64,000 nucleotides of DNA, from NCBI GenBank assembly GCA_947172415.1, contig OX359201.1, positions 930,001-994,000 on the forward strand, written 5' to 3'. The position numbers were made by a program, and so were the translations under genes. Within the stretch, counting starts at the first letter, position 1. Each line of letters starts with the position of its first letter. The DNA comes from Chondrosia reniformis (lineage: Eukaryota > Porifera > Demospongiae > Chondrillida > Chondrillidae). The notes below the pieces were generated by a model. It made no database searches, was not told the DNA's origin, and was given only the letters and a program-made list of their open reading frames with translations. This document shows, piece by piece, positions 3,201 to 34,400 of the stretch.

Positions 3201-6200
3201 CCGGGAAAGTACGTAAAACACATCCAATGCACACCTTGCTGGTCATGTGACATACGTGCTGGTCATGTGACATATGTGCTGGTCATGTGACATATGTGCT
3301 GGTCATGTGACATACGTGCTGGTCATGTGACATATGTGCTGGTCATGTGACATACGTGCTGGTCATGTGACATACGTACACGTCATCAATTGCTGGAAGC
3401 TACGTATATACCTCTTTCATAGTACATTGCAGTATGTTGTATATATGTACATATAAAGTATTGTATTTCTTTCATAATGATATATAATTATAGCACATAT
3501 TATTATATTAATAAAACAGCAGAGATTGCTAATGTTACGTACAATTCACACATTTTTTACCTACCAACATGTGAAAAAATGAAAATGAATATCACTGGAA
3601 AATATTCATTTCTTCATCATTGCCTTTGCAGAGACGCAGTGAACTTACCTACGTACATATATGTGTACATACATATTGCATATAGAATTAATTTCTATTG
3701 GAGAACATGTGCACATATTATATTATACATGTGTAAGTGTATTTATGTATGTTAATAGACCTATTGTACAGCCAGCATTTAATTGAATTATACAGTAATA
3801 ACTAGTAAGTTACTATATAAAATGACCTGTCGGAGCTGATTCTCTCTTCACACAGTCCAGATGACAGTGTAGTCCCTGACGACACATCTCCAGTTAAACA
3901 TGGCGACATTGTGGAGTTCATCCATGCTAATACAGAGAAGCTGCTGAACAGTCATGATGTGGCAGCACCTTTGACCCCTCAGAGCCAGGAAGTGGCTGGA
4001 TATATCAACTACTCAGCCAAATTTATTCCCTACCTACGCTGGAAACTGGTAAGCTCTTTGTGATGTCATATGATGTCATGATAGTTATGTGATATCATGT
4101 GATACCATGTGACAAAGTAATTTATGGTTCTTAGTCTACAGATCTAAAGTCATTATCACTCATGAATATATTCACTGATAAAGGCCCTTATTACTGCAAG
4201 TTTACTTTTCCATGATTGTTGTGTATAAAGTCTACTATACTAGCTACGCCTTATATTATACATAATTAGGTAATTTATAGTTATAGTGAAAGGAAAACAC
4301 ATAACACGACTAATGTAATAATTGCGCAACCACAATTTGTACCTCTACGGACAATGTAACCCTTGTCATCATGCTATTAATCACCTGCATCACCTGAGTC
4401 TGATGGTGTTCAGGTGAATTGTAAAATTTTGCTACACTTTGTAATTTTGATATTATACAATTAAGAGTATACAATTAATTACTTCCTGCAGGAAGTGCTT
4501 CATGATGCTGGTCCATATCCTGTCTATTGGCAGCCAGGAAAGGTTCAGTTTGTCATAACTCACCAACATTCTGGTCAGCTACTCACAGTAAGTAAGCAAG
4601 TAAAACTGTGACTGACTAAGTCACTTTGTACCTTACACGTGTATCTTACTGTACCTACAGGGCAGTGTACATAATATGTAGCTATATATCCCAACCTAGA
4701 ATATTTATACTATTAGTTCTACCTCAATTTATGATATACAGTCAAACCTCAATTATCCGATTATCTAAGTTACAAGTACCTCTGCCTATCAGGGATTTGT
4801 TTTCCGTATGAGCGGCCATTTTTTCATGTGACTTGCTGTGAATCACCATAGTTTTCAGCACTAGATTTAATTTTTAAGTTTCAGTAAGGTAGAAGATCCT
4901 GATGTCCAGCTATGCGTATATACGTATATAGTACATGTACAAAGTGTGTTATATTCAGTACTGTTACTGAGTTACCGGCAAATTCAGAGTTACGGGCACC
5001 CTTTGGTCTCACAGTGTCCGGATAAGAGAGAGTATGCTATATACTATAGGTGTAAATTGATGTAGTTGGATGTACAAACTGACTGAGGATAGTCCAAGCC
5101 AGATACTCCTTGCCTTAGCAATCTAAGGCAAGGAGTAACAAGGTTCTGTTAAGGATTTTGTTTGTAAAGTTAGATGTACATAGGATTCACAGAAGATCAA
5201 GATAAAGAAAAAGACAAAGACTCCCAGGTTCACTGATGAAGGGTGGAATTCCCAGAAATGGCTGTCTGACCCAGTGGAAAAGAAGATGAAAGAAGGAAGA
5301 AAAGACTCCTGTATCTTCATCCAAAGCTCTCTTCAGGTTTAGTACCCCTATAGGCTCTTTTACAGAATAGGCATAGCATGTAGGAAAATGGTATCTTAGA
5401 TTTTTCATATGTACCTGCTAATTAGTGGTACACATAAAGTTATGTGGTGTATCTTGTGTGTGTTAGACCACTGGCAAGAGGCTGCCAGAATGGGGATTCA
5501 AGCAGATGGAGGCAGTCACTAGTAAGACTGCTGATGCCTTGAGCAGCATTTGGTACATGGAAGAACTTGAAGTTCCTCTGCCTAAGAAAATTGTGAAGAA
5601 AAGAAGAAAAGCAAAAAGTGACTCTAAAGGAGATGAAAAGGAAGAGGAAGATGGCAAAGGAAACACTACTTTATCAGGTGAAGATATCAACATGGCTGTC
5701 ACCTTAGGGTCTAGAAATGAGGATCAGGATATAGAATTAGATGAACTGCAGAACACTTACAGAGAGGATAAGGAAGAGGGAGAAGGAGAAGGAGGTATTA
5801 ACACCTTAGTCGGTGGAGAAGATCCTTCAGATAACAAGAGGATGGAGGGAGATGAGGATATTGAACAGAGTGAAAGTGAAGATGGTAGTCATGGAAACAA
5901 TGATGAAAAGAACAGTGAGAATAATGAGCCAACTACTGGTGAGAAGGACAGTCAAGAAGATAATGAGAATGGAGGACAGAATGGACAGGAGATCAATCAG
6001 GCGGACCAACAGAATGATCAGGAAGACGACTCTGAAGAATATGAAGAGTATTCAGAAATGGAAGGTAGACTATTAAAGAAACGAGCACTTGCCATAATCG
6101 TTATTGGCATTGCGTTTACCCCACCCACTCATGTCTCCTGAGGAGTACGATGAGCTAACGGATGAATGTACTTCCACTTAAGTAGAACTAGATTGCATGT

Positions 6201-14266: not shown

Positions 14267-16591
14267 TCAATCCTGTGAACATTTTTTCACTTCCTCATGA
14301 TCAAAGAACCAGTTCATGGTTCCCGTAAAGCGTCTGATGTGTTGATCATTGTGTGCATGGCTCTTATCCTTACAGCCAAGAGTGTCACACACGTGACCAT
14401 GATTTGCCTTTTTACTTGTTTTGACACTGAGGTGATAAGCAAGCATGGCCAGTATCCCAAAAGCAAAAAGAACGAAAACACTGACAAGTCCTGCATTGGA
14501 GTACCACAGTGACCAATCGCTGGCCATATAAGCCACTAGGACAAGAATCGTGTTTTCTGTGAATATAAGAATGTGGTAACTTATGAGATGACATATAGCT
14601 CTTGCTTTATTGCGCTCAGTAGATTCATCCAAAATTGAAAAGTAGAAAAAAATATTAAACCCAGCAATCAGAAATTCAATACAGTATCTGTGGAGAAATC
14701 GAAACTTTGTTCTGCTATTGTCAGTAGAATCATGTTCATTAAAATGGAATGTATTTCCGGTTTGTTTGAACATCCAGGCAACCATAATGGTATAGTGGAT
14801 ACCCAATAACAACAGCACCCAACCACTGAAAATACCAGCAAAGAGTGCAATAGCTATTCCTCGAGATGATATCATGAATATCTGCCAGAGTATATGAATA
14901 AAATAAGATGTCCAGGATAGCCTCTCCTTCTTCAAACCCTCTTGGGTAATGGGGCTGACCTGTGACCCAATGGACACTGGAATATAGGCTAATATGTCTA
15001 CGTAGGCTGAGGCAAAGTCTGACACAGCAAAGGCTAAAGACCCAAAGGACCAAATAATGCTTAACGGAGTGATGATTCTATAAATGAGAAGAGGTTCGTG
15101 CTGGACTTGAACGAGATAAAGCTGTAGCAGTGCCTGAGGGGCTGATTCAAGAAAGGACTCCATCAGTCTTATGAAGGAAATATCGTAGTACCTAAAGTAG
15201 GTAAAGGGATCTCTGGTACAGTTCCACAGAAGCCTAATGATCCGTACTGGTAGGCCGAGATGTAGAATGTGAAGGAGGGAGATTAAAGCAAATTGCTTTT
15301 TATTGTCAAAGGTTTCAAGTGGAAGGAATTTTGGGCCAAGAACACCCATATCTATTTCTTCCTTCCCATGAGCACCTTGCTGACCCCTATGAAACATGAC
15401 CCTTGATGTGTCCTCATCAAAGGTCACATAAGGGCTGTTTGGGGACCTACGTGATTGTCCATGTTCTTCCTGCTTATCTAGACCCAGGGATTGCGGTCTG
15501 TTTGGATTTAATGATGGTGATACCTGCAATGTGGACTGATCTTCATAATTTTGACTTGCTCTAAACCATTTACTGAAGGGAAGAGAAAATCTTACACGGT
15601 TTCTTCTTGGCTCAACTGTTACTTCTGGGCTACCTTCTCTCTCAGCTTCCCTCTTGAGCCCTGGGCTACCTTCTCTCTCAGCTTCCCTCTTGAGCCCTGG
15701 GATACCTTCTCTCTCAGCCTCTCTCTTGCGGTCTGTCAGTTTCTCTTGTTCTGATAATGCGGTGGCAGCAATAGACTTTTGAGGTTTAACGGGGAGTGAG
15801 TGACTAACTACATCATTCTGAAAGGCATCGTTTTGTACTCTTCTCGGAAGGGACAGACTAGTAGAACGTTTACGTTGATAAAGGTCTGAAACAGAAAGAC
15901 TTAAGGTAGGATCCAGCGACATTTCTCTTTGGAGTCTTTCCAACTCACAAGACGGCTTTGAGCAGACCAGTCTCACCAAAGGGGTGAAGGTGGGCGTGGC
16001 AGGGACTTCCCCAGGGCCACTGCAAGAGGATAGGACCCCACCTTCAGAGATGGCAGCTAGATTAGGACTAGCTGGTGGAGTATTTGGTCTAGGTCTACGC
16101 TTGCTCTGGTCCCGGGCACCAAAGAGTGCCTTCAACTTGGATGGCCCAGTATTTTTACAGAGATAAAAAGACCAGAAATATAGAAACCACGATACAAACT
16201 GTATCAAGATGGATGGAACCACAATAAAAAATACGGTAGCTATAAAATATTTAAGTGCGTCCTCGTCTCTGCCAGAGAGATAGTTTTGAAGATACAGGAC
16301 GGCGACCCAAACATCTAATCCAATGTCAGTCAGGTAGGATACCAGCGCGAGCAACATCCCCACCTGCCTATAGAGGGGGAACTCGTACAGGTACAGTCTT
16401 CCTGGCAGCTTCCTACAGAAGACGCTGTAATGGAGACCACAGTATTGCGATTCCAGTTCTTTGGTGTAGGACGACTCTGATATATGTGAATGTGTTCTGG
16501 GTCTGATAGCGACTCCATTGACGGTCCCTGTGTCAGGCTCCTCGCGATCGTTATCAGAAACTTCCATTTTTGACAACCTACCCACGCACAT
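14267..16591 (-). CDS. XK-related protein (phospholipid scramblase family), intronless
   Basis: Single uninterrupted frame of 774 aa. The N-terminal part has the first XK membrane block (VGMLLALVSYLTDIGLDVWV and following). The second half carries the family motif MESFLESAPQALLQLYLV and six further hydrophobic segments ending near residue 730. Family members (XKR4/8/9) are plasma-membrane lipid scramblases, often activated by caspase cleavage. Between the first and second membrane blocks lies a hydrophilic insert of about 250 residues, including three tandem copies of a 14-residue unit (GLKREAEREGSP). Intronless structure among intron-rich neighbours suggests origin by retroposition, though no poly-A or target duplication was identified. 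A second ATG eight codons in (MEVSDND) is an alternative start. The first 51 codons are duplicated at 22406-22559. Confidence 0.88.
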   Translation of the reverse strand: MCVGRLSKMEVSDNDREEPDTGTVNGVAIRPRTHSHISESSYTKELESQYCGLHYSVFCRKLPGRLYLYEFPLYRQVGMLLALVSYLTDIGLDVWVAVLYLQNYLSGRDEDALKYFIATVFFIVVPSILIQFVSWFLYFWSFYLCKNTGPSKLKALFGARDQSKRRPRPNTPPASPNLAAISEGGVLSSCSGPGEVPATPTFTPLVRLVCSKPSCELERLQREMSLDPTLSLSVSDLYQRKRSTSLSLPRRVQNDAFQNDVVSHSLPVKPQKSIAATALSEQEKLTDRKREAEREGIPGLKREAEREGSPGLKREAEREGSPEVTVEPRRNRVRFSLPFSKWFRASQNYEDQSTLQVSPSLNPNRPQSLGLDKQEEHGQSRRSPNSPYVTFDEDTSRVMFHRGQQGAHGKEEIDMGVLGPKFLPLETFDNKKQFALISLLHILHLGLPVRIIRLLWNCTRDPFTYFRYYDISFIRLMESFLESAPQALLQLYLVQVQHEPLLIYRIITPLSIIWSFGSLAFAVSDFASAYVDILAYIPVSIGSQVSPITQEGLKKERLSWTSYFIHILWQIFMISSRGIAIALFAGIFSGWVLLLLGIHYTIMVAWMFKQTGNTFHFNEHDSTDNSRTKFRFLHRYCIEFLIAGFNIFFYFSILDESTERNKARAICHLISYHILIFTENTILVLVAYMASDWSLWYSNAGLVSVFVLFAFGILAMLAYHLSVKTSKKANHGHVCDTLGCKDKSHAHNDQHIRRFTGTMNWFFDHEEVKKCSQD

Positions 16592-16699
16592 GTATGAGTC
16601 ATGTGATCTTGTTTATTAATAATCCCACTAGGACCCGACCCCGACCCCGACCCCGACCGGATGCGTCCCGCAAAACACAGGTGGATATGGCTAATCGTA

Positions 16700-17412
16700 C
16701 AGTGCTCCACATCTAAAGAGTACATTTTTCGTATAAAAACGACAAAACGTTATCAGTTATTTTTTTAACATATTTCCTTACCTTAGCAAGTGTTCTCGAA
16801 GAGGATTATACCTTTTCCCTTGTCCAGAATGTCTAGGTAAATTTCCGCTGTTGTTAATAGGGAAAAATCGCCATTTTTACTAAATGACATAATTGGTCAC
16901 ATTCGATCATGTGACTATAAATTACACAATTCGCGATAATTGCTCGTACATAGCATACGTTCATGGCTTGCTGCTAGCTTGAAGTCTATCGAAAGCATAA
17001 CTCTTACACTAGCTTTTGACCTGTCTACAGCTCTTAACTACAAAAATTGCAGTGGAACGTATCTAAAAACTAAAGGTACCTAAAATTAACCTTTTCGACT
17101 CGTTTTCTCAAATGGAACGTTGAATTCAAGTTTTCTTTACACCAAGTCTCACGAATATTGGGAGCAATATCATACTGAAGTAAGAGCTCTTAACTAATAA
17201 CCATTCGTTAGTTAGTATCTAAAAACTGTTTTTTGGAAAATGGGCTGCAACTAAGTGGGCGTGTCACAAACCACGCCCATCAACCCACATAGCATTCATT
17301 AACATCTACTTGATCCATCAAATTATAAAAATTAGCTAATTCCATCACCCTTAACTACTTAGGGCTATTTTAGGCAAACCAACAAAATGCACTCTTTAGA
17401 TGTGGAGCACTG
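16700..17412. mobile_element. 713-bp TA-flanked terminal-inverted-repeat transposon (non-autonomous)
   Basis: Starts CAGTGCTCCACATCTAAAG and ends with its exact complement; about 22 bp of TIR is perfect and similarity continues a few bases further. TA flanks both sides (16698-16699 and 17413-17414). The matching place in unit 2 (around 22662) reads straight through with one TA. That empty site shows insertion after the duplication, or much less likely precise excision. No reading frame of note. The superfamily is probably Tc1/mariner-like from the TA target. It sits in the divergent promoter region between the XK-related gene and GT1. Confidence 0.93.
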
Positions 17413-17572
17413 TATATCTACGAAGAGTGAATAAGGATTCGCAAATTCGAACTTATCTTTTGAAAGATGATCCTTTCAATTAAGTGTATTGTTAATTAGT
17501 GCATTTTTAGTTTAGATGGATGAGTGTGTTCAGTAGTACCCGTGGACAAGGGGTCTATACTTGCAATTGAGG

Positions 17573-18985
17573 ATGTCTGTTGTACGTGCACATTCTACGT
17601 TGAGAAATATATTCGTCTTCTTACTACTAGTCGGTGCATTTCTGGAGTTGATACTGTTGTTTGACTCTGAAACTTTACAAAGATTCACGATGAGGAATTA
17701 TGAAAAGAAGTTTTCATTCAACTTATTATTTCATTCAAAGATAGGATCTACTTTGAAAGCGAAACCCGAAATATCAAAGTTAGATCTAGACCTAGCTGAT
17801 GCGTATATATCCCTTTTTAGAGCAGATACTCTATGCAAGACTGTAGACATATCTAAAAAGCGGCTCGAACAGACTAGGAGACCAATGAAGTCTCTAATTG
17901 AATACGCTAAGTGGCACGAGAAGGAACGAGAGAAGTTACTGTCAAAAGACCCCAAGGAGATTAAAGATCTCAGAACGTTAATTTGGCATTTTAAAGAATA
18001 TTCTCAATCGGCCGGACTAGCTGACAAAGTCAGAGGAACTACTGTTGCCCTGATCTTGGCCATTTTATCAGAACGACTCCTTTTCATTCAATGGAGCAGC
18101 CAGCCCTTCCGAACTTCTAGACAGAGAAATATCTTTAAACCTAACCACATAAACTGGGACATTGATGAAGAGATTTTAACACTTATTGGCAAAAATGCTA
18201 CAATAGACAATCCTGATTTAACTGCAACATTACATGGGAATTATAATGCTTCAAAAAACCCAAATATAATGCAAAACATTTTTAGCTGTGAAGACAGATA
18301 CCATCACTTATTTTTTGAAACTACGATTCCTATACAAGGTATACTGAGTATTTTGAGAGCACACGATGACCTTAAAATGAGAAAGTGTTTCAGACATCCT
18401 GAATTGACTCATAAGACTGATGTTATGAATTGGACTTTAACAACAGAGGCTTTTCATCTAATTAGTGGTCAATTCAGTCGATATTTGTTCAAATTCAGTG
18501 AAAAGGCTCTCACTCGGGCCTCTCATGAACTAATAAACATAGGAATGAGGATAGACCAAAATTACAGTGTAGTTCATATACGTACTGGATTCTACGGATT
18601 GTACAATGAAACAGTTACATCCACAAGATGGAGTAAATTTAATCTAACGAGTGAGGAAACTTGGCGAGGATTAGTTAATCGAACTATTGCAAAAAGTGTG
18701 AAATCAATTGGACCCCGTGCTCCTGTATTAGTATTGACAGATTCAGACCTGGTGAAGGAGTGGGTGAGGAGGGAGTACAAGGGTTCTGTCAAGGTTACTG
18801 AAGGTACTGTTGGACACATTGGCCATGGTAAGGAATTGAAAATGACCAACAAAGTAGAGGAAATAGAATATCAGACTGGTGCCGAACTGTCCATCATGGC
18901 ACACTCTCATTTACTTACTACAAGTGTCGGTGGATTTAGTCAACTTGCCAGTAGCATGTGTTTAATGGCAACTTTATCAATATGA
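17573..18985 (+). CDS. Fucosyltransferase-like type II membrane glycosyltransferase, copy GT1
   Basis: Intronless, 470 aa from the ATG at 17573; in-frame codons upstream lack an ATG. Short cytoplasmic tail, then one membrane anchor (IFVFLLLVGAFLELILLF), then a luminal domain. Two blocks resemble the GT-B fucosyltransferase superfamily (GT11/23/37/68): GLADKVRGTTVALILAILSE, like the G-L-D-R-x-x-G block, and SVVHIRTGFYGLYNE, like the HxRxG donor-binding motif. A C-terminal LVLTDSDLVKEW and SVGGFSQLASSMC complete the pattern. Several N-glycosylation sequons (NAT, NYNAS) fit a Golgi luminal protein. The acceptor and linkage cannot be inferred. It lies tail to tail with QTRT1 exons, 146 bp apart. 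It differs from GT2 at about eight residues plus a two-residue indel. Confidence 0.75.
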   Translation: MSVVRAHSTLRNIFVFLLLVGAFLELILLFDSETLQRFTMRNYEKKFSFNLLFHSKIGSTLKAKPEISKLDLDLADAYISLFRADTLCKTVDISKKRLEQTRRPMKSLIEYAKWHEKEREKLLSKDPKEIKDLRTLIWHFKEYSQSAGLADKVRGTTVALILAILSERLLFIQWSSQPFRTSRQRNIFKPNHINWDIDEEILTLIGKNATIDNPDLTATLHGNYNASKNPNIMQNIFSCEDRYHHLFFETTIPIQGILSILRAHDDLKMRKCFRHPELTHKTDVMNWTLTTEAFHLISGQFSRYLFKFSEKALTRASHELINIGMRIDQNYSVVHIRTGFYGLYNETVTSTRWSKFNLTSEETWRGLVNRTIAKSVKSIGPRAPVLVLTDSDLVKEWVRREYKGSVKVTEGTVGHIGHGKELKMTNKVEEIEYQTGAELSIMAHSHLLTTSVGGFSQLASSMCLMATLSI

Positions 18986-19970
18986 AACAAAAATAGGATT
19001 TCTGTCACATATGCATTTTAATTCATTGACTGATCACAAGACTTATTTTTCTATCTTATTTTTTATTCTTTATTGACATGTATCTAAAAATATTATATGA
19101 AAAAATATAATTAAATAATTATAAAATGGAGTTATTCTTTCTTCTTCTTTGGTGCAATTGTCTCTTCCAGGCTCTCCTCTTCTACCTGAAGTTTGATGCC
19201 AACACTACTAAATGCATCTACGGCCCAAGAAGGGTAATTCCCTTTTGGGTACATTTCCTTCATAAAGTGTCCAACGAATGCTGGAAACTGCTTCTGAAGT
19301 ATACTGTATCTTAACTCCTGCATCAAATTTAGCTGAGAAAAGAGTTGAAAGGACTATAGCTATAAAGATACTGTATATATAGTAGCCTAAGGACATACAA
19401 AGGACAAAGAAGATAAAGAATCCCTGGGTCACTGAAGGCCGCAAAAATTCCGGCCATATGGTATTTTCATCTATTATTTTTTGTTTCCCTTAATCTCTTA
19501 TGTTTGACAGCCATGCATGGTAGGAAAATGGTGAGAGTTTAGATTATTCATAAATAGAGACCACAGTAGTACTGTAAAGCAACAGCAAACATATATTAGA
19601 TTATCATAACCTTTAAGTTACAAAGCTAGACCTAAGTGAAGGTAATTGGGTCAATTATGTGAGCCAAATCAAGTTACTCATCAGAACGTCTCATTAACCT
19701 ATAACAAACACACTGAACAACCACATGAAAGTGGCAACCATATATGTACGTATATACACAACTAAATGTAGTTAATTAACCCAACTAACAAACTCCCATT
19801 AATATACTTTGACAATGTTCTAATATTTGCTTAATTTCTTAAATTAGTGTTGTACCACTTTACTGGTTTCCAGCAAAGTAGCTACGTATATGTGACCAAG
19901 AAGAGTTTACCAGTATAATAATGAGTTGATATTGATGTTGATGTAGTTGATGTGAACTAAGCAGTCATAT

Positions 19971-20143
19971 ACAGTACTTTTTGGGTCGGTTGTCCAGACC
20001 GGATGCTGCAATCGGTAACTCGTGACTACCATTTGAACAAACTTTCCCACTAAAATGACATCACCAGGCATGAGGCGATAACCTTTTACGATTACTGATT
20101 GCAATGTCCGGGCTGGACAACCGACCCAAAAAGTACGTACTGT
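19971..20143. mobile_element. MITE with ~45-bp inverted ends in QTRT1-copy intron (unit 1)
   Basis: acagtactttttgggtcgg... and its complement ...cgacccaaaaagtac bracket about 80 bp. The arms match for about 45 bases with a few mismatches. The right edge carries an extra GTAC relative to the unit 2 copy. Confidence 0.85.
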
Positions 20144-20929
20144 ATAAGTCTGAGCAACCAATGGAACAGTATTAGTGTAGGTATGTGTGTGTACTCCAAC
20201 CTGATAGGCCACGTTGTGGAGCGTGATAAGGTTACATCCAACCGTTTCCTTCCTGGAGATGAGAGTGTGAAGGTGTGATCTGCTGAACCGCTTGCATGTG
20301 GAACAGTTACACTTTGCATCGATGGGATCAAAATCTTTTGCAAATGACTGACTTTTTAGGTTAATCTGACCCCAGGGCACTAGGGCAGAGCCAAACCTCT
20401 AACACAAGGAGGACAAGGAAGGTAAAGATACCGTTAGAAAACTGTCAGAGAGAACTATTTAAATAAGGACGGTCAAAAAACATGGCCACCCTATTAAAAT
20501 GTACATATTATGTGGGGGAAAACAAAATAGAAAAAAAATTGAAGGGGGTATACCAGTCCTGTTCAATGTTTGTTTCTTATTAAAATTTTCAGTATGATTT
20601 TCTTCAAGGAGGGGAGGGGTAAAATATAATCAAAGTCTGCCCCTCCCCTTCCAGAAGAAATTCTACATTGATATGCATTATATCACTTGCATTGATATGC
20701 ATATAAATAGACATGTTCATGTATGCAGCACTCACAGCTGTTCTGGTCGGATAGACGCAGTCATACATGTCCACACCCAAAGCAGAACATACAACCAAAT
20801 CAGTCGCATAACTGCAGAGTAGCAAATAACAACATAAGACATAAATATAAATGTATATACTTCCAATATCAGAACATTGAGTAATAATAAGCAAACCACA
20901 GACAAACATCATGAAGAGTAAAAAACATG

Positions 20930-21005
20930 AAATAAGCAATTGCCAAAAACTGAACCCAGGACAGCTGGTTTGGACCACCAGAGCATTGATCTCATATACA
21001 TGTAC
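20930..21005 (-). repeat. tRNA-like fragment in QTRT1-copy intron (unit 1)
   Basis: The bottom strand reads gctctggtggtccaaaccag then ctgtcctgggttcagt, resembling the 3' half of a tRNA with a degraded B box. No full cloverleaf. Repeated in unit 2 at about 26630-26705 as part of the duplication. Possibly a tRNA-derived SINE remnant. Confidence 0.25.
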
Positions 21006-22364
21006 TAGTCCCCATTTAATTAGTGGTACATCAAAGAAGAAAAGAGAAGAGCTTGAAAAATGGAGGACTTTGACAAGCTTTTAAACGTCATATTATCAGA
21101 CTATACACTGAATATTAGTATGTACTCATAACCACTGCTAAAGAGTCTCTTAATTTATTTGCATAATTATAATATACTGCTTGTTACATTCTTGCAATTT
21201 TCAGTAAATTAGCCAAAAATTACCTTATTGCTCTCTTATTATGTGGATATCAAATTAATCAGGGAGTGTCTATCAAAAATGGCTATCACTTTAACATAAT
21301 GGAAAGCATTGTGATCAAGTAATGAGTAGGAATTTACTCACCCTATTCCCATGGCATATCTAGGCTTATGTTTTGGAAGGTGGTCAGTGCAAAGAGAAAT
21401 TATTCTCCAAAACTGGTTCTTATCTTCACCTCCACTCAAACCTCCGATAGCATAGCCAGGGAGGTCCCTCTTCACCATCTCTATGGAAACAGGTGACAGA
21501 TCACACTACAGTTCAGGTATGAAAAATCAAATACACCATTTTCCTACATGCGATGCCTATTCTGTAAAAAAGCCTATAGGGGAACTAAACCTGAAGAGAG
21601 CTTTGGATGAAGATACAGGAGTATAAAAATGTCTTACATACTTGATACCTACGTATTACATGAAGCCATACATAAAAAATAATAGGTATACATGTAGTTT
21701 AATTAGCACTTGGCAACATTAGCTCACCTTGGGCACATGTCTTGCGTAATTCCTCCTGAAGTCCTCCCTGTACTATAGCAAACAGATTTTGATCTTTCGG
21801 TCGCTTGTGAGCTTTTACACATCTAGACATGATACAGTGGAAAAGAAAGGACAGTCAGCATGAAACTGTATACTCGTCCAAGGCTCCAAATGGTTTCTCT
21901 CAGTCTCTAGGGGAAATAGTCTATTCTGTCCTTTATTTTCCCTTGTGTCATGTGACCGTCGACCAACCATATACTTATATGTATAAAAATGTGTTTTAGA
22001 TTGTTTGTCGCCCTTAATCACCCTCATGTGTAGTTAAGTATATGTAATGCATAGAGCCAAATGTCAATTAAATATCAATTAAGAGATACTCTCTAAGTCT
22101 CTTTATAGAATAAACCATCAAACAGAAACTTTATGACTTCACAACTCATACTAGTGCTTTATAGTGGGCAAAGGTCACACAATAATAATAATAATCTTTA
22201 ATTGTTCCAATGTATTGAAATAATTAAGTTGCTTGACAATTCATTCAATTCGTACAAATTCAAATTAAAACCTAAAAGTGAACACAATATAGATTTACCT
22301 TCAGTACCCCAAATAAAACTGTAATCCATTTTGCCACACTGCACGTATATGTACATCTACTGTA

Positions 22365-22559
22365 TTATACAGTACAAGTCTTTTGTATTATCTCTCCATA
22401 GGCACCACAGTACTGCGATTCCAGTTCTTTGGTGTAGGACGACTCTGATATATGTGAATGTGTTCTGGGTCTGATAGCGACTCCATTGACGGTCCCTGTG
22501 TCAGGCTCTTCGCGATCGTTATCAGAAACTTCCATTTTTGACAACCTACCCACGCACAT
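22365..22559 (-). pseudogene. Duplicated 5' fragment of the XK-related gene
   Basis: Codons 1-51 of the XK-related protein (MCVGRLSKMEVSDNDREEP to ELESQYC) are repeated exactly at the protein level. The frame then crosses the duplication breakpoint into 13 unrelated residues and a stop. The first membrane segment is absent, so it cannot be a scramblase. Upstream sequence of the parent, including the (GGGGTC)n-like gcgggacg block, is kept, so the promoter may be active. Confidence 0.9.
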
Positions 22560-22825
22560 GTATGAGTCATGTGATCTTGTTTATTAATAATCCCACTAGG
22601 ACCCGACCCCGACCCCGACCCCGACCGGATGCGTCCCGCAAAACACAGGTGGATATGGCTAATCGTATATCTACGAAGAGTGAATAAGGATTCGCAAATT
22701 CGAACTTATCTTTTGAAAGATGATCCTTTCAATAAAGTGTATTGTTAATTAGTGCATTTTTAGTTTAGATGGATGAGTGTGTTCAGTAGTACCCGTGGAC
22801 AAGGGGTCTATACTTGCAATTGAGG

Positions 22826-24244
22826 ATGTCTGTTTTACGTGCACATATGCATTCTACGTTGAGATATATATTCGTCTTCTTACTACTAGTCGGTGCATTT
22901 CTGGAGTTGATACTGTTGTTTGACTCTGAAACTTTACAAAGATTCACGATGAGGAATTATGAAAAGAAATTTTCATTCAACTTATTATTTCATTCAAAGA
23001 TAGGATCTACTTTGAAAGCGAAACCCGAAATATCAAAGTTAGATCTAGACCTAGCTGATGCGTATATATCCCTTTTTAGAGCAGATACTCTATGCAAGAC
23101 TGTAGACATATCTAAAAAGCGGCTCGAACAGACTAGGAGACCAATGAAGTCTCTAATTGAATACGCTAAGTGGCACGAGAAGGAACGAGAGAAGTTACTG
23201 TCAAAAGACCCCAAGGAGATTAAAGATCTCAGAACGTTAATTTGGCATTTTAAAGAATATTCTCAATCGGCCGGACTAGCTGACAAAGTCAGAGGAACTA
23301 CTGTTGCCCTGATCTTGGCCATTTTATCAGAACGACTCCTTTTCATTCAATGGAGCAGCCAGCCCTTCCGAACTTCTAGACAGAGAAATATCTTTAAACC
23401 TAACCACATAAACTGGGACATTGATGAAGAGATTTTAACACTTATTGGCAAAAATGCTACAATAGACAATCCTGATTTAACTGCAACATTACATGGGAAT
23501 TATAATGCTTCAAAAAACCCAAATATAATGCAAAACATTTTCAGCTGTGAAGACAGATACCATCACTTATTTTTTGAAACTACGATTCCTATACAAGGTA
23601 TACTGAGTATTTTGAGAGCACACAATGACCTTAAAATGAGAAAGTGTTTCAGACATCCTGAATTGACTCATAAGACTGATGTTATGAATTGGACTTTAAC
23701 AACAGAGGCTTTTCATCTAATTAGTGGTCAATTCAGTCGATATTTGTTCAAATTCAGTGAAAAGGCTCTCACTCGGGCCTCTCATGAACTAATAAACATA
23801 GGAATGAGGATAGACCAAAATTACAGTGTAGTTCATATACGTACTGGATTCTACGGATTGTACAATGAAAAAGATACATTCACAAGATGGAGTAAATTTA
23901 ATCTAACGAGTGAGGAAACTTGGCGAGGATTAGTTAATCGAACTATTGCAAAAAGTGTGAAATCAATTGGACCCAGTGCTCCTGTATTAGTATTGACAGA
24001 TTCAGACCTGGTGAAGGAGTGGGTGAGGAGGGAGTACAAGGGTTCTGTCAAGGTTACTGAAGGTACTGTTGGACACATTGGCCATGGTAAGGAATTGAAA
24101 ATGACCAACAAAGTAGAGGAAATAGAATATCAGACTGGTGCCGAACTGTCCATCATGGCACACTCTCATTTACTTACTACAAGTGTCGGTGGATTTAGTC
24201 AACTTGCCAGTAGCATGTGTTTAATGGCAACTTTATCAATATGA
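22826..24244 (+). CDS. Fucosyltransferase-like type II membrane glycosyltransferase, copy GT2
   Basis: Intronless, 472 aa from the ATG at 22826, almost identical to GT1. Differences: MSVLRAHMHSTLRY against MSVVRAHSTLRN in the tail, Asp to Asn in ILRAHNDL, PSAP against PRAP, and a cluster directly after HIRTGFYGLYNE where GT1 has TVTST and GT2 has KDTFT. Anchor, HIRTG motif and C-terminal block are the same. It keeps the transposon-free promoter. Its stop is 146 bp from the end of the complete QTRT1, tail to tail. Confidence 0.75.
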   Translation: MSVLRAHMHSTLRYIFVFLLLVGAFLELILLFDSETLQRFTMRNYEKKFSFNLLFHSKIGSTLKAKPEISKLDLDLADAYISLFRADTLCKTVDISKKRLEQTRRPMKSLIEYAKWHEKEREKLLSKDPKEIKDLRTLIWHFKEYSQSAGLADKVRGTTVALILAILSERLLFIQWSSQPFRTSRQRNIFKPNHINWDIDEEILTLIGKNATIDNPDLTATLHGNYNASKNPNIMQNIFSCEDRYHHLFFETTIPIQGILSILRAHNDLKMRKCFRHPELTHKTDVMNWTLTTEAFHLISGQFSRYLFKFSEKALTRASHELINIGMRIDQNYSVVHIRTGFYGLYNEKDTFTRWSKFNLTSEETWRGLVNRTIAKSVKSIGPSAPVLVLTDSDLVKEWVRREYKGSVKVTEGTVGHIGHGKELKMTNKVEEIEYQTGAELSIMAHSHLLTTSVGGFSQLASSMCLMATLSI

Positions 24245-24390
24245 AACAAAAAAAGGATTTCTGCCACATATGCATTTTAATTCATTGACTGATCACAAGA
24301 CTTATTTTTCTATCTTATTTTTTATTCTTTATTGACATGTATCTAAAAATATTATATGAAAAAATATAATTAAATAATTATAAAATGGAG

Positions 24391-27300
24391 TTATTCTTTC
24401 TTCTTCTTTGGTGCAATTGTCTCTTCCAGGCTCTCCTCTTCTACCTGAAGTTTGATGCCAACACTACTAAATGCATCTACGGCCCAAGAAGGGTAATTCC
24501 CTTTTGGGTACATTTCCTTCATAAAGTGCCCAACGAATGCTGGAAACTGCTTCTGAAGTATACTGTATCTTAGCTCCTGCATCAAATTTAGCTGAGAAAA
24601 GAGTTGAAAGGATTATAGCTATAAAGATATTGTATATATAGTAGCCTAAGGACATACAAAGGACAAAGGAGATAAAGAATCCCTGTGTCACTGAAGGGTG
24701 GAATTCCCAGAAACAGATGTCTGTCCCAGTGGAGGAGTAGAGAGGTGGATGAAAGGAATTAGAAAATAAGTCAAACTGTATCCTTATTCAAAGCTTATTA
24801 AAATTACAAGACTGATGGTTATAGCCCTATAATTCCTGTATACCATATATGGGTGGAAATTTGACAGAAAGAATAATTGGCAGATTGCTCAATTTTACTT
24901 TGGTGATTTTACTGACAAGACATGCAGTTTTTCTCCTACTTTTTATGTAGTTTGGCGGTTGAAATATTGCACTCAAAGCCACCAATCTCCAGCCATATGG
25001 TATTTTCATCATCACTGCTTGGAAGTAAACTAGTAGGTACCCATTTAATGGCATAGAGCATGATTCCAAGTGCTCCCGTGCATGATTATAACCATTTTAC
25101 ATTATAGCAACCTGTAGACATTTTTGCAATTAACTCTAACTCCTATAGTCTTATCAGACATATGTACACACCTGCAGGGTGAGTACATCTAAAATCTTAT
25201 GTTTGACAGCCATGCATGGTAGGAAAATGGTGAGTTTAGATTATTCATAAATAGAGACCACAGTAGTACAGTAAAGCAACAGCATACGTATATTAGATTA
25301 TCATAACCTTTAAGTTACAAAGCTAGACCTAAGTGAAGGTAATTGGGTCAATTATGTGAGCCAAATCAAGTTACTCATCAGAACGTCTCATTAACCTATA
25401 ACAAACACACTGAACAACCACATGAAAGTGGCAACCATATATGTACGTATATACACAACTAAATGTAGTTAATTAACCCAACTAACAAACTCCCATTAAT
25501 ATACTTTGACAATGTTCTAATATTTGCTTAATTTCTTAAATTAGTGTTGTACCACTTTACTGGTTTCCAGCAAAGTAGCTACGTATATGTGACCAAGAAG
25601 AGTTTACCAGTATAATAATGAGTTGATATTGATGTTGATGTAGTTGATGTGAACTAAGCAGTCATATACAGTACTTTTTGGGTCGGTTGTCCAGACCGGA
25701 TGCTGCAATCGGTAACTCGTGACTACCATTTGAACAAACTTTCCCACTAAAATGACATCACCAGGCATGAGGCGATAACCTTTTACGATTACTGATTGCA
25801 ATGTCCGGGCTGGACAACCGACCCAAAAAGTACTGTATAAGTCTGAGCAACCAATGGAACAGTATTAGTGTAGGTATGTGTGTGTACTCCAACCTGATAG
25901 GCCACGTTGTGGAGCGTGATAAGGTTACATCCAACCGTTTCCTTCCTGGAGATGAGAGTGTGAAGGTGTGATCTGCTGAACCGCTTGCATGTGGAACAGT
26001 TACACTTTGCATCGATGGGATCAAAATCTTTTGCAAATGACTGACTTTTTAGGTTAATCTGACCCCAGGGCACTAGGGCAGAGCCAAACCTCTAACACAA
26101 GGAGGACAAAGAAGGTAAAGATACCGTTAGAAAACTGTCAGAGAGAACTATTTAAATAAGGACGGTCAAAAAACATGGCCACCCTATTAAAATGTACATA
26201 TTATGTGGGGGAAAACAAAATAGAAAAAAAATTGAAGGGGGTATACCAGTCCTGTTCAATGTTTGTTTCTTATTAAAATTTTCAGTATGATTTTCTTCAA
26301 GGAGGGGAGGGGTAAAATATAATCAAAGTCTGCCCCTCCCCTCCCAAAAGAAATTCTGCATTGATATGCATTATATCACTTGCATTGATATGCATATAAA
26401 TAGACATGTTCATGTATGCAGCACTCACAGCTGTTCTGGTCGGATAGACGCAGTCATACATGTCCACACCCAAAGCAGAACATACAACCAAATCAGTCGC
26501 ATAACTGCAGAGTAGCAAATAACAACATAATACATAAATATATATGTATATACTTCCAATATCAGAACATTGAGTAATAATAGTGATAAGCAAACCACAG
26601 ACAAACATCATGAAGAGTAAAAAACATGAAATAAGCAATTGCCAAAAACTGAACCCAGGACAGCTGGTTTGGACCACCAGAGCATTGATCTCATATACAT
26701 GTACTAGTCCCCATTTAATTAGTGGTACATCAAAGAAGAAAAGAGAAGAGCTTGAAAAATGGAGGACTTTGACAAGCTTTTAAACGTCATATTATCAGAC
26801 TATACACTGAATATTAGTATGTACTCATAACCACTGCTAAAGAGTCTCTTAATTTATTTGCATAATTATAATATACTGCTTGTTACATTCTTGCAATTTT
26901 CAGTAAATTAGCCAAAAATTACCTTATTGCTCTCTTATTATGTGGATATCAAATTAATCAGGGAGTGTCTATCAAAAATGGCTATCACTTTAACATAATG
27001 GAAAGCATTGTGATCAAGTAATGAGTAGGAATTTACTCACCCTATTCCCATGGCATATCTAGGCTTATGTTTTGGAAGGTGGTCAGTGCAAAGAGAAATT
27101 ATTCTCCAAAACTGGTTCTTATCTTCACCTCCACTCAAACCTCCAATAGCATAGCCAGGGAGGTCTCTCTTCACCATCTCTATGGAAACAGGTGACAGAT
27201 CACACTACAGTTCAGGTATGAAAAATCAAATACACCATTTTCCTACATGCGATGCCTATTCTGTAAAAAAGCCTATAGGGGAACTAAACCTGAAGAGAAC

Positions 27301-29735
27301 TTTGGATGAAGATACAGGAGTATAAAAATGTCTTACATACTTGATACCTACGTATTACATGAAGCCATACATAAAAAATAATAGGTATACATGTAGTTTA
27401 ATTAGCACTTGGCAACATTAGCTCACCTTGGGCACATGTCTTGCGCAATTCCTCCTGAAGTCCTCCCTGTACTATAGCAAACAGATTTTGATCTTTCGGT
27501 CGCTTGTGAGCTTTTACACATCTAGACATGATACAGTGGAAAAGAAAGAACAGTCAGTATGAAACTGTATACTCGTCCAAAGCTCCAAATGGTTTCTCTC
27601 AGTCTCTAGGGGAAATAGTCTATTCTGTCCTTTATTTTCCCTTGTGTCATGTGATTGTCGACCAACCATATACTTATATGTATAAAAATGTGTTTTAGAT
27701 TGTTTGTCGCCCTTAATCACCCTCATGTGTAGTTAAGTATATGTAATGCATAGAGCCAAATGTCAATTAAATGTCAATTAAGAGATACTCTCTAAGTCTC
27801 TTTATAGAATAAACCATCAAACAGAAACTTTATGACTTCACAACTCATACTAGTGCTATATAGCAGACAAAGGTTAAACAATAATAATAATAATAATAAT
27901 AATAATCTTTAATTGTTCCAATGTATTGAAATAATTAAGTTGTTAGACCATTCATTCAATTCGTAAAAAATTAAATTAAAACCTAAAAGTGAACACAATA
28001 TAGATTTACTTTCAGTATCCCAAATAAAACTGTAATCCATTCTGCCACGCTGCACATATATGTACATCTACTGTATTATAAAGTACAAGTCTTTTGTGTT
28101 ATCTCTCCATAGGCACCAATATATTATAATAATACAGCTGCTTAGTTTTTCTTAATAAGAGGGTTTTACTCTATGCATATTGCACAACCATATTCTTTTT
28201 TCACCTGTCTAACCATCTAATGGATCTTTGCATAGCCTCCTCCACCCGTGGGCCAGTGGTCAACACATGTACCACGTCATCCAGCTGCATGATAATGTCA
28301 GCTCCTATTGTGTTCTGAAGGCAAACAGACTGTTCTGGGGTCAGCAACATCTCACTGTCGTCATGGGGAGACTGGAACTTGACACCTTCCTAAGTATATA
28401 CAATGCAAGCTATAAATACCATTATAATATAAATAATTCAAGAAAGGACTTAGAAACAGAATGGGCACATTGGCATAAAATTCAGGGTATAAAACTCATT
28501 TTAAATTAAGGGATTTTTATTTAGGCCTATTAAGTAAATATATATTATACATATTATATATATAAGTTAATTACAACTTTCTTCCTTATTCAAATAGTTT
28601 CCATGGCAACAGTTTACCAAGGTTCTCTAACACAGTGATGCAAACCTCTGTGATTTCAGCAAGCTTTAAAAGTGACACCATTTGAAATCCACCGCTATCC
28701 TAAATCATTGAGAGACTAATAATAAACATACAAGTAATGTCCAACACAAATCAAAGGCTAGAGCTCTGCACATACTACAACTCACAGTGAGAAGTGACCG
28801 ATCCCATCCCATAAACTTGTGTAGCCCGCCAATCTTATCCAGCAGTTTAGCTCCCTAAATATACAGACGAGCAGCCAATCAAATCAGTTATATACAAACA
28901 TAAAATACAATTGATTTGGTCTTTCCTTATCCCGGAGTAGTCCTGTTCGGAGTGCTAGACAAGTAGACCCAGGATTCCACGGCTCCACCAGTGAGCTGAT
29001 GTCCAAAAACATTTTGCCCTGTCTCTGAGACCCAATATATGTGTGTACTATTCATCTATTACTTAAATTGTTTATCCAAACCATAGGGGAAAATAATCTC
29101 GTTTTTCAACATGCTATATCTACATTAGAGTAAAAGGCCTAGAGGGAACTAAACCTAGAGCTTTGGATAAAACAAAGTGCATGGCAAGGTGTAATAATGG
29201 AGACATACACAGTAAATTGCACCATAGATAGAGTCGTATATCTATGATTGCACAAGAGACATACGTAGTACATTGCACCATAGATAGAGTCGTATATCTA
29301 TGATTGCACAAGAGACATACGTAGTACATTGCACCATAGATAGAGTCGTATATCTATGATTGCACAAGAGACATACGTAGTACATTGCACCATAGATAGA
29401 GTCGTATATCTATGATTGCAAAGGTTTATTGGTAAATAAGGTGACCATTTTCGGTAAATTAGCTTACGAGGCCATAATCAATAAATAAACTATTTTCACT
29501 ACATTAGCCATAAATTCGTATTCCTTACAGGCCTATTTCCCAAGTGGTAGGTATTTCCGAGCAGTATCTGACAATTTAGCTCTTTAAGTTGTTCCGGGGT
29601 CATTCCTTTGAGCGTGCCTTGCGTGCCAACAGGCATAAATACGGGTGTGTCTACTGTAGAGTGAGGCAGAACCATTCTTGCAACCCTCGCCTTCGAAACG
29701 GGACATTCAGCTAATATTTTAAACTCTAGCGCCAT
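24391..29735 (-). CDS. QTRT1: Queuine tRNA-ribosyltransferase catalytic subunit 1
   Basis: Exchanges guanine 34 for queuine in the anticodon of His, Asn, Asp and Tyr tRNAs, working with QTRT2. Nine exons on the minus strand: 29529-29735, 28786-28854, 28646-28699, 28205-28389, 27427-27521, 27041-27179, 26429-26504, 25894-26091, 24391-24591. They sum to 407 aa (human about 403). Motifs in order: [40 protein letters not shown] (general acid/base Asp), [32 protein letters not shown], the nucleophile region [14 protein letters not shown], zinc ligands CNCSTC plus HNVAYQ, and the conserved end [15 protein letters not shown] short Lys/Glu tail follows. The head is single-copy, while exons 5-9 are duplicated at 19132-21822. 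Divergent from GT3 across 276 bp. Confidence 0.96.
25668..25836. mobile_element. MITE with ~45-bp inverted ends in QTRT1 intron 8 (unit 2)
   Basis: Same element as 19971-20143, inherited through the duplication. The right edge reads aaaaagtactgt, without the extra GTAC of unit 1. Confidence 0.85.
29200..29420. repeat. ~56-bp tandem repeat in QTRT1 intron 1
   Basis: Four copies of a unit containing cattgcaccatagatagagt and cgtatatctatgattgcaca, almost identical. The first is truncated and the last ends at gattgcaaagg. Confidence 0.92.
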
Positions 29736-30011: not shown

Positions 30012-31385
30012 ATGGGTATAAGTTACAGAAGAGCATTCTTTGCTATTATTTTTATAAGTGGAGTCCTATTATTAGTTAATAACTCAAATATTCTGTTCAG
30101 TGAGGATGCTAAAAGTGATCTACGGCCAATCACAATTTCTGGTTCGAAATGGAGGTCCACTTTGGATACAAACAATGATAGGTTAAAAACAGAGCCCGAT
30201 TTGACTGATGACTACGTTTCTCTTTATACAGCTGATCCTTTGTGTAAAACTATAGCAAAAAAGGAACCAATTGGACAGTTAAAGAATCCGATTCTTCTAA
30301 TGCACGTTTTACGAGAATATGCAGAATGGCATAAGAAGGAACGGAAAAGACTGTTGTCAAAAGATTCCGTGAATATTAGAACACTTATTTGGCATTTCAA
30401 AGAATATCCTCAATCGTCTGGACTTGCTGACAAAGTCAGAGGAATTACTTCTGCGCTCATTCTTGCAATTCTGTCAGAACGACTCCTTTTCATTCAATGG
30501 AGCAGCCAGCCCTTCCGAACTTCTAGACAGAGAAATATCTTTAAACCTAATCAAATAAACTGGGACATTGATGAAGAGATTTTAACACTTATTGGCAAAA
30601 AAGCTACAATGGACAATCCTGAATTTGGACCTAGGTTGGTAATGAATAAACAATCCCATGAACCAGAACCATCATACTTGATAGAAAGAATATTTGGTTG
30701 CAAGGCTGAAAGCCAACATGTATTTCTTTGGACGGCTGGTGTGGGCAATCACATACTTTCATTGGTGCAGAAGTATAATTACATTGATCAATGTAGCAAT
30801 TATAGCGAAAGACATAAAACTGGGAAAATTAATTTAAGTGATCAAGCTATGTCGGAGGCCTATAAATTTGGTGAAGTATTCAGTCGATATTTGTTCAATT
30901 TCTGTGAAATGGTACTCACCCGAGCCTCTGAAGAACTAAAGAAGATAGGCATAAGAGTAGATCAAGACTATAGTGTAGTTCATATACGTACTGGATTCTA
31001 TGGACTGTACAATGAAATTGGCCATTCACACACGTGGAATGTACATAATGTAACGAGTGAGGAAACTTGGCGAGGATTAGTTAGTCAAACTATTGCAAAA
31101 AGTGCAAAATCAATTGGACCCAGTGCTCCTGTTTTAGTATTGACAGATTCAGACCTGGTGAAGGAGTGGGTGAGGAGGGAGTACAAGGGTTCTGTCAAGG
31201 TTACTGAAGGTACTGTTGGACACGTCGGTCGAAGAGAGAAAGATTTAACTGATGATGATATTGAGGCAGTAGAATATCAGACTGGTGCTGAACTAGCCAT
31301 AATGGCACACTCTAGTATACTTGTCACTAGTGCTGGTGGATTCGGGAACCTGGCCGCCAACCTTTGTTCAATTCCATTAAATTAA
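30012..31385 (+). CDS. Fucosyltransferase-like type II membrane glycosyltransferase, diverged copy GT3
   Basis: Intronless, 457 aa. Signal anchor at residues 6-25 (RRAFFAIIFISGVLLLVNNS), then luminal domain. It shares GLADKVRGITSALILAILSE, SVVHIRTGFYGLYNE, LVLTDSDLVKEWVRREYKGS and a final TSAGGFGNLAANLC with GT1 and GT2. The N-terminal 100 residues and the middle (around residues 205-290) are poorly conserved. Stretches of near-identical DNA alternate with diverged ones, suggesting gene conversion. The start ATG lies in ccgacacaATGGG. Shares a 276-bp divergent region with QTRT1. Confidence 0.75.
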   Translation: MGISYRRAFFAIIFISGVLLLVNNSNILFSEDAKSDLRPITISGSKWRSTLDTNNDRLKTEPDLTDDYVSLYTADPLCKTIAKKEPIGQLKNPILLMHVLREYAEWHKKERKRLLSKDSVNIRTLIWHFKEYPQSSGLADKVRGITSALILAILSERLLFIQWSSQPFRTSRQRNIFKPNQINWDIDEEILTLIGKKATMDNPEFGPRLVMNKQSHEPEPSYLIERIFGCKAESQHVFLWTAGVGNHILSLVQKYNYIDQCSNYSERHKTGKINLSDQAMSEAYKFGEVFSRYLFNFCEMVLTRASEELKKIGIRVDQDYSVVHIRTGFYGLYNEIGHSHTWNVHNVTSEETWRGLVSQTIAKSAKSIGPSAPVLVLTDSDLVKEWVRREYKGSVKVTEGTVGHVGRREKDLTDDDIEAVEYQTGAELAIMAHSSILVTSAGGFGNLAANLCSIPLN

Positions 31386-31450: not shown

Positions 31451-34400
31451 ATGGCTGACAGTCGACTATGTTTTTCTGAGGAAAACACGACGCAACATGT
31501 AGAATCGTATGCGGAAATTCTGTCTAAAAAAATGAATAAATTGTAAGCATTTAATATCTATTAAAAGTTAGAAGTTTGTTTCGCTAGCCCCTGTGCCATG
31601 TCATTCACTCCCCTTTCTGTGATAGAACCACCTCTATAGAGAAGGCGAGGTTGGAAGGCGACTACAAGCAAGCGCTATTTAAGCTAAATAAAGCTATCGC
31701 TCTAAATGAAAATAATTCGGACCTCTACACGAAGAGGGGGGAGACTTATTTACGACTAGGAGACTATAATTCTGCCACTGTTAATTTTAAGCATTCTCTT
31801 GCGTTGGATGAGGACCCTGAAAGAACGCGCAGGATTCAGAAAATGCTAACTCTTGCATTTTACCTCAGCGGTCGGGCACTCTTCGACCAATCCATGTATA
31901 AGCTAGCATTAGAAAAGTTTACTGAAGGAGCAGAATTGGATCCGAGTAACATACCGCTGAGAATGCTTTGTGTGGCTTGTCTTCATGAACTGGGAGAAGA
32001 TGACAGGTGCATGGTGCTGATTGAGGACGCCATTGGAGTGGATCCTACAAATCCTGAACTGTATATTATAAAGGCAAGACTGAGCTATTCCACTGGTAAT
32101 GTAAGTGTTAGTGTTGGATTAGTATTATTATTATTATTAGATAATAATAATAATTTGTTAATGGACTTATCGTTATTGTTATTATTGCTGTACATGAAAA
32201 ATCTAAGATACCATTTTCCTACATGCTATACCTATTCTGTAAAAGAGCCTATAGGGGAACTAAACCTGAAGAGAGCTTTGGATGAAGATACAGGAGTCTT
32301 TTCTTCCTTCTTTTCCCTTCTTTCATCTTCTTCTCCACTGGGTCAGACAGCCGTTTCTGGGAATTCCACCCTTCATCAGTGACCCTAGGAGTCTTTGTCT
32401 TTTTCTTTATCTTGATCTTCTGTGAATCCTTGGCTCTGTATATACTATTGATAATATCCCAATAAAATGTTCTGCTAATTTATTGTGTTGTTGTGTATAT
32501 TCTTTGTATGCCCTTCACTTCAAAGGCTAGCTCTTCTTCCTCCTTTCTAGTTCCACAAGTGCTATCATGACATAAAGAAGGCACTGGAGCTGGATGACTC
32601 ACACGAACAAGCTCAGAAGCTCCTTCTTGAGTTGGAGGAGAGTGCAAAGGAAAGGAGGGCAGAAGCTCTTCAGTTGAGTGTCTCCGGAGAGAAGGAACAG
32701 GCAGTCAAGAAGATTTCAACAGCAATTGAAACTGATCCTTCCTCTCCTGAATATCATGTATTTAGGTGAGAGTGAATTGTACCTGTTCCCTGTCTACAAT
32801 GTACGTACGTATGTCCTATAGTTTACCTTTGTATATGTAGCTATAGCTATTCTCACATGTAGTAAAAAGGGAGTTATATTAATTGCACAAAGCCAGTGCC
32901 AAGGCCATCTATGATACCATCTCATATACAGTGTCACTTTGTACATAGACACTTTGCACGTCTGTTTCTGTTTCACAGGGGAACTCTATTTAGGCACCTA
33001 GGGAACTACAACGAGGCTCAGAATGATTTCCACAAAGCCATCCACAAGTGTGGTCATAACGAGGATCACCCAATGTTTAGACTGGCTATGAAGCAACTGG
33101 CATTCACATACAATGATGTAGCAGTTGCACACTACAAGTGAGAAACACGTTTGTGATTGATTGAGTCTTTCTCTCTGTACATTATGAGTAGAAGTAAATA
33201 CGCATAATGACTTGACTAGTTGATATTGTAAAACCTTTAATATTAGCGTGCCATTAATGCTAGCAAAATTAGCGATACGATATCATTCACTAACAATTTA
33301 TGATCACTAAAATGTTTATTATTACTCATGTGCAGTAGTGTGGAGCAAGTATTTACAACAAAATGCTAAATTTAATGGACGCTAATAAGTCATAGGGTAA
33401 AACGCTAAATATAATGGACGTTAATATTAAAGGTTTTACAGTATCTATATATATGTACGTATGTACGTACTTATTTTGGTGTCAGTTTACTGTAAATCCC
33501 TTTATTTAAGCGGAACCAAAAGTTAGCGAAACTGGATTTTACCCCTACATAGCGGAATTTAATATTAGCGACTTACAAGATGCATGGAAGTTTTGTTAGT
33601 TAATTTCAGTAATAAATAATTACAGTAGTACTCCATTTAGTAGTAATACTATATTTAGTGAACTCTAGTTTTAGCGGTAAATGTCAAATTGCTAATATAG
33701 CTAAATTTAATAGCACGCTAATAATAATAATAATAATAATAAGGGATTTACAGTATCCAGAAATGAGTGGTTTGTGTTGTGTGACGTTCTCCATAGGAAA
33801 GATAGAACTGGACAAGCTGTAGAGTTGCTCAACAGGGCAGTGGCAGTAGAGAAAGCTGAACCGTTCCTCTATGTTAACAGAGGAGGTTAGTGGCCACAGG
33901 ACATGAGGTTATATACGTACATACGTATACTCACAGGTATACACACATATACGTACATCACTTCACACCTCTTATCCAACTTCTATATAAACCCCCTACC
34001 ATTCCTCATTTTTCATATTTGCTGATGAAGACCTACGGGTTGAAACGTTCTATTATCAGTAATTTATGTTGCTGTTGCTCAATAATACCTCTGGATTTTA
34101 TCATGATCGCAACAAACAATCCTTATCACTTCATGTACGTACATACGTACATATGTATACACATGTATGGATTATTTCTGTATATAATAATAGCATAATC
34201 AATCTAACACACTAATTTTCTTACATGCTACATCTACTTTAGAGTAAAGGCCTATAGGGAACTAAATCTAGTGAGATCTTTGGATGAGGATACAAAAGTT
34301 TTCTTCTTCTCTTCTCCTGGAGATGTACTTTCTATAATTCTCCAAATTCTACCCTTCATCAGTAACCCTGGGAATCTTTGTCTTAATTCTTCTTGATCTT

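Follow-up and report, generated by a model that had tools for sequence, protein, structure and literature searches.

Chimeric structures that arise through partial tandem duplication are well known from Drosophila, where 76 chimeric genes were reported among 1116 tandem duplications; loss is given there as the prevailing fate of such duplications (PMC5460883). In that account, raised expression was measured for 24 of the 76 chimeric genes, so transcription at a similar junction in a sponge would not be surprising (PMC5460883). Here we describe a locus whose layout is of this known kind, a partial tandem duplication that creates a chimeric structure, from the sponge Chondrosia reniformis. The window, by which we mean the whole stretch of DNA that we analysed, is 64 kb long. 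As in the chimeras described from Drosophila, the 5' part of one gene is joined to the 3' part of another and regulatory DNA is shuffled. Unlike those chimeras, the sponge locus is known from sequence alone, and its reading frame can be kept only by skipping an exon.

Both parents of the junction can be assigned to known families. The right parent is QTRT1, the catalytic subunit of animal tRNA-guanine transglycosylase (TGT; PDB 6H45, 6H42, and 7NQ4). The complete gene matches PF01702 exon by exon, TIGR00430 at 3.2e-132, and human QTRT1 in PDB at 2.2e-168 over residues 6-389. Like the animal enzyme, the truncated copy at the junction encodes the native C-terminal residues in its exons 5-9, and unlike the enzyme, it has neither exons 1-4 nor the DSGGFQ motif. 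The left parent is a full member of the XK-related proteins (PF09815). Its best PF09815 stretch is at 412-720, and the 51 codons that were copied to the junction lie outside this match and precede it, so a hybrid would have no scramblase domain.

A self-comparison of the window revealed two direct copies that lie next to each other, and the joint that fuses the unit ends is sharp. By self-BLAST, 16436-16699 matches 22404-22667 (99.2% identity), 17412-19438 matches 22665-24697 (98.8%), and 19496-22407 matches 25195-28118 (97.9%). Across the joint, the XK-related sequence ...ACTGTGGT runs directly into GCCTATGG... of QTRT1 intron 4, and the bases TGGT are common to both parents. A match of at least 4 bp would be expected at about 1.6% of random joints (a hand calculation that assumes equal bases), and the 4 bp of TGGT suit microhomology-mediated joining or template switching. 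The sequence-only reading of this DNA had described an XK-related 5' end with its first 51 codons facing QTRT1 exons 5-9, and this is what we found: both parts lie in the same orientation, on the minus strand. We conclude that the duplication itself is beyond chance and that the layout is real. Table 1 lists the features.

Our preferred explanation, which we hold to be quite likely, is a recent tandem duplication of one whole gene (gene X) that carried two gene fragments as passengers and gave rise to no stable hybrid protein. The duplication of about 5.7-6 kb, joined at the 4 bp of microhomology, copied gene X whole and cut both of its neighbours.

Table 1. Features of the duplicated locus, in positions of the window
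Feature	Position	Strand	Basis
XK-related gene (left parent), full length, intronless, 774 aa	14267..16591	-	ORF; PF09815 E 3.1e-41
Duplication unit 1	16436..22407	.	self-BLAST and alignment
MITE-like insertion, unit 1 only; inverted terminal repeats of ~28 bp, CAGTGCTCCACATCT...; TA target site duplication	16700..17412	.
Gene X copy 1, complete, 470 aa	17573..18985	+	ORF; alignment
QTRT1 exons 5-9, 5'-truncated copy, unit 1	19132..21822	-
Best-scoring donor-like GT within 22700-21823 (AAG/GTAAAT, score 3.19)	22299..22300 (last exon base 22299)	-
Junction, 4 bp microhomology TGGT (minus strand), contains putative donor GT (last exon base 22406)	22404..22407	.
Duplication unit 2	22404..28122 (approximate end)	.	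self-BLAST and alignment
XK-related 5' piece: 51 codons from ATG 22559 and upstream DNA	22404..22667	-
Gene X copy 2, complete, 472 aa, head to head with XK-related piece	22826..24244	+
Complete QTRT1 (right parent), nine exons, 407 aa, unit 2 side	24391..29735	-
Older gene X paralog, 457 aa, 58% identical, head to head with QTRT1	30012..31385	+

One alternative is that the assembler laid two alleles in tandem, or that the duplication is present on one homologue only. In its favour, the units appear to differ about as much as two alleles do. Of 2230 QTRT1 intron sites compared, 20 (0.9%) are different between the units (this comparison omits 19428-19500, where the copies align poorly, and 22150-22407, which we treat separately). 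For the genome as a whole, the reported k-mer completeness (69.43% for the primary assembly, 74.54% for the alternate, and 93.73% combined; PMC12181767) implies that 72.4% of the primary k-mers are shared. This corresponds to a heterozygosity of roughly 1.0% if k=31 (1.3% from the alternate assembly) or 1.5-1.9% if k=21, which is a rough estimate that would be inflated by k-mers whose absence has another cause, such as structural differences. Sister genome notes give k=31 for their k-mer counts; we also looked for heterozygosity values in the available text of other sponge genome notes and did not find any there. Furthermore, curators took 4 haplotypic duplications out of this assembly (PMC12181767). 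Against an artefact, the assembly is described as having only 42 contigs in 14 scaffolds (PMC12181767), the window has no gap, and the microhomology at the junction would need to be present in the reads themselves. The assembly was built from PacBio HiFi reads with Hifiasm and purge_dups, and 10.31 Gb in 0.80 million reads gives a mean read length of about 12.9 kb. Because this is longer than one unit and because the window contains 0 N bases, a misjoin seems doubtful. Overall we consider the allelic alternative improbable; the duplication may yet be on one homologue only, which would change little.

A single young age does not account for every part of the comparison. In the intron beside the junction, 22150-22407 and 27865-28118 differ at 19 of 258 sites, or 7.4% (p ~1e-9 relative to the other introns). 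Gene conversion may have homogenised the interior of the units but not this end; the stretch may also descend from an old allele or reflect error-prone synthesis where the units were joined. Separately, in intron 8 (19439-19495 versus 24698-25194) the units differ by some 440 bases that were lost or replaced in a complex manner, and intron 5 of each unit contains one copy of a dispersed repeat of about 105 bases (5305-5409, 21518-21622, 27217-27321, 32194-32297, and 56807-56911; 93-94% identity), which belongs to a longer repeat (5182-5408, 32161-32448, and 56658-56944).

The truncated QTRT1 copy is in good condition. Its exons 5, 6, 7, 8, and 9 (21822-21728, 21480-21342, 20811-20736, 20398-20201, and 19332-19132) encode a protein that is identical to that of unit 2, and they contain no stop, frameshift, or lost splice site. 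The splice AGs and donor octamers are the same in both units, as the suggestion of intact splice sites had implied, and the frame is open; the 25 bases ahead of exon 8 and of exon 9 hold one difference each. AATAAA occurs at 19074 and 19067, past the stop codon of exon 9. The copy retains the block DMYDCVYP with the catalytic aspartate and the CNCSTC zinc site. Exons 1-4, or about 171 of the 407 residues, are absent, and with them DIIMQLDD (at 141, in exon 4) and DSGGFQ (at residue 93, in exon 3, outside unit 1), so it was right to expect a product without DSGGFQ. We take the aspartate of DSGGFQ to correspond to human Asp105 (PMC6165067), an assignment of motif to number that we made by alignment. 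An active TGT would have both catalytic aspartates and the whole barrel, and unit 1 does not encode this combination. The barrel forms one domain in the published structure (PMC6165067), and because exons 1-4 are missing, any hybrid from unit 1 would be without roughly its first half.

How should the intact exons be read? Exons 5-9 differ between the units by 5 synonymous and 0 nonsynonymous changes, and the XK-related piece differs from its parent by 2 synonymous and 0 nonsynonymous changes. If one copy had drifted freely, a ratio of 7:0 would arise with a probability of 0.0014-0.0034, depending on the transition bias. The two young copies of gene X show the reverse, with 7 nonsynonymous and 2 synonymous changes as well as a two-codon indel (Fisher 0.003 versus the fragments), so these copies differ mainly by amino-acid changes (7 of 9). 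Taken alone, 7:0 would favour constraint on the fragments. But if homologues were joined, or if the event was very recent, then the changes arose in whole genes and say nothing about the hybrid. The changes that bear on selection since the birth of the hybrid are these 7 synonymous and 0 nonsynonymous ones, which are unpolarised and come at an allelic level of divergence; the coding differences may predate the truncation of QTRT1. As the divergence is close to the inferred heterozygosity, we do not accept the ratio as proof of selection on a hybrid. The check on dN/dS in exons 5-9 that had been proposed thus gave a result that points to constraint when taken by itself, and that is equally expected if the differences are allelic and older than the truncation.

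Another alternative is a working chimeric gene, in which the XK-related promoter drives a transcript whose donor at 22406, or at 22299 if translation starts later, is spliced to exon 6, and the C-terminal half of QTRT1 serves as a decoy or as a fragment that binds the partner. The copied XK-related piece has no native splice donor, because its parent is intronless. It retains 51 codons from ATG 22559, or 43 from the in-frame ATG 22535, and its frame crosses the joint into QTRT1 intron 4 and reaches a stop at 22367-22365. The GT at the break is in phase 1 and sits within the TGGT microhomology. The claim that this phase does not suit exon 5 and does suit exon 6 agrees with our analysis: a join to exon 6 is in frame and would give 255 aa from ATG 22559 or 247 aa from ATG 22535, and a join to exon 5 closes the frame after two residues. 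Since exon 5 is the nearest acceptor, it would have to be skipped to make an in-frame hybrid, although its acceptor in unit 1 is identical to the acceptor that is used in unit 2.

The donor at the break had been called weak, and it is. Under a metazoan donor matrix, GTG/GTGCCT scores -0.59 bits versus 0.11 to 7.72 for the eight native QTRT1 donors, and so falls below all eight. It is not absurd, as it is near the weakest native donor and at the 87.5th percentile among all 7845 GTs of the window, both strands counted. Translation from ATG 22559 allows 22 productive joins across 15 GTs, and the best-scoring of these runs from 22550 to exon 6 rather than from the break. The GT at 22299, where the base in unit 2 is A, outscores 6 of the 8 native QTRT1 donors. 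It lies past the end of the XK-related frame, and its join to exon 6 would give 223 or 214 aa only if translation started at 22356 or 22329. Exon 5 can be reached as well, from other starts and through weak donors (22340, for instance, with a score of -0.75, for 241 aa). The join from 22299 to exon 6 and these joins to exon 5 would be the best case for a hybrid protein.

The fit of phase does not distinguish the actual joint from a random one. The acceptor phases of exons 5-9 are 2, 1, 2, 0, and 0, so every donor phase suits some exon. We made 1000 random breakpoints from the same two parents by pairing a position in the XK-related ORF (14400-16500) with a position in intron 4 (21850-22407). 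Donors were counted if they lay between a point 60 nt upstream of the joint and the in-frame stop, and joins into any of exons 5-9 were allowed. A productive join was available in 981 of them, and in 448 there was a productive join whose donor scored at least -0.59. An in-frame join is thus at chance level, and we reject the fit of phase as evidence of function.

We consider a working chimeric gene very unlikely. It would be consistent with the 255 aa open frame from 22559 via 22406 to exon 6, with the 223 or 214 aa that the better donor offers, with the AATAAA past exon 9, and with the synonymous nature of all 7 coding differences. These points are offset by the random breakpoints, which do as well, by the skipping of an exon whose acceptor is unchanged, and by the loss of exons 1-4, which leaves out DSGGFQ and about the first half of a single-domain barrel (PMC6165067). 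The boldest form of the idea is a new sponge gene, in which XK-related regulatory DNA expresses the C-terminal half of QTRT1, a product that would have been under purifying selection since the duplication and that would compete for the partner subunit and in this way tune the modification of tRNA with queuosine; we consider this equally unlikely. The proposal that a chimeric protein is made thus found no support, given 981 productive joins in 1000 random breakpoints, a donor at -0.59, and the skip of exon 5. A functional hybrid protein, though possible, gets no support beyond chance from the sequence. We think it extremely unlikely that transcription of the QTRT1 fragment begins at a start of its own within the intron, with a short product from the in-frame methionine of exon 6 (EMVKRDLPG) and the open frame that follows: there is no evidence of a promoter, exon 5 would normally be included, and the divergence does not set such a start apart from drift.

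If the locus is a duplication of gene X with two passengers, as we prefer, then minus-strand transcripts into QTRT1 intron 4 probably still arise from the XK-related piece, because the upstream region of the XK-related gene is undamaged there and presumably contains a promoter. (Public RNA-seq exists for the same specimen, ERR10177766.) In transcripts that are not spliced at the break, the XK-related frame would end within 13 codons of it, and in those joined to exon 5, after two residues. Since several exon junctions follow each of these early stops, nonsense-mediated decay would be expected, and most likely the transcripts yield no stable hybrid protein. We put the intact state of exons 5-9 down to the youth of the event, with copies no further apart than two alleles, and not to demonstrated selection on a hybrid; the copy in unit 1 is too young for many marks of decay to be expected. 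Observations against our preferred explanation are the 7:0 ratio and its contrast with gene X, the donor at 22299, and the 7.4% stretch.

The locus cleanly illustrates a partial tandem duplication, and shows that in-frame fit, intact exons, and a dN of 0 are all possible without function. Such marks can arise when an event is recent and its copies are no more different than alleles. If the hybrid were expressed, this early-branching animal would offer a view of a chimeric gene near its birth, beside intact parents and an intact breakpoint.

The XK-related 5' piece is present twice in the assembly, at the junction and in the full gene, and in both places it is head to head with gene X. The distance from ATG to ATG is 267-291 bases in unit 2 and about 980 in unit 1, and the longer spacing is due to the MITE-like insertion. 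Given this arrangement, the piece at the junction may survive as a portion of the DNA upstream of gene X.

Gene X seems to be the part of this locus that tends to duplicate, as its family has 12 strong matches in the genome, several of which are clustered (C4, C8, C13, and C14). It matched no Pfam family with an E value of 0.01 or below; the only NCBIfam match (0.033) did not pass the cutoff, and solved structures gave only a match at 0.27. By eye alone, it resembles a membrane-anchored fucosyltransferase-type enzyme. We also considered whether ectopic gene conversion lay behind the differences at codons 349-352 and 384 of gene X. We compared the family loci L011-L020 besides the two gene X copies, and no compared locus has either copy's 349-352 motif in full.

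The MITE-like element, which lies between the XK-related gene and gene X in unit 1, was inserted once the duplication had taken place, and unit 2 retains its empty site. TA target sites are linked to Tc1/mariner-type elements. This one has 12 full-length or nearly full-length matches of at least 96% in the genome, itself included. Elsewhere in the window, there are large tandem repeat arrays of short units at 6532-7193, 41567-41970, and 52691-53024.
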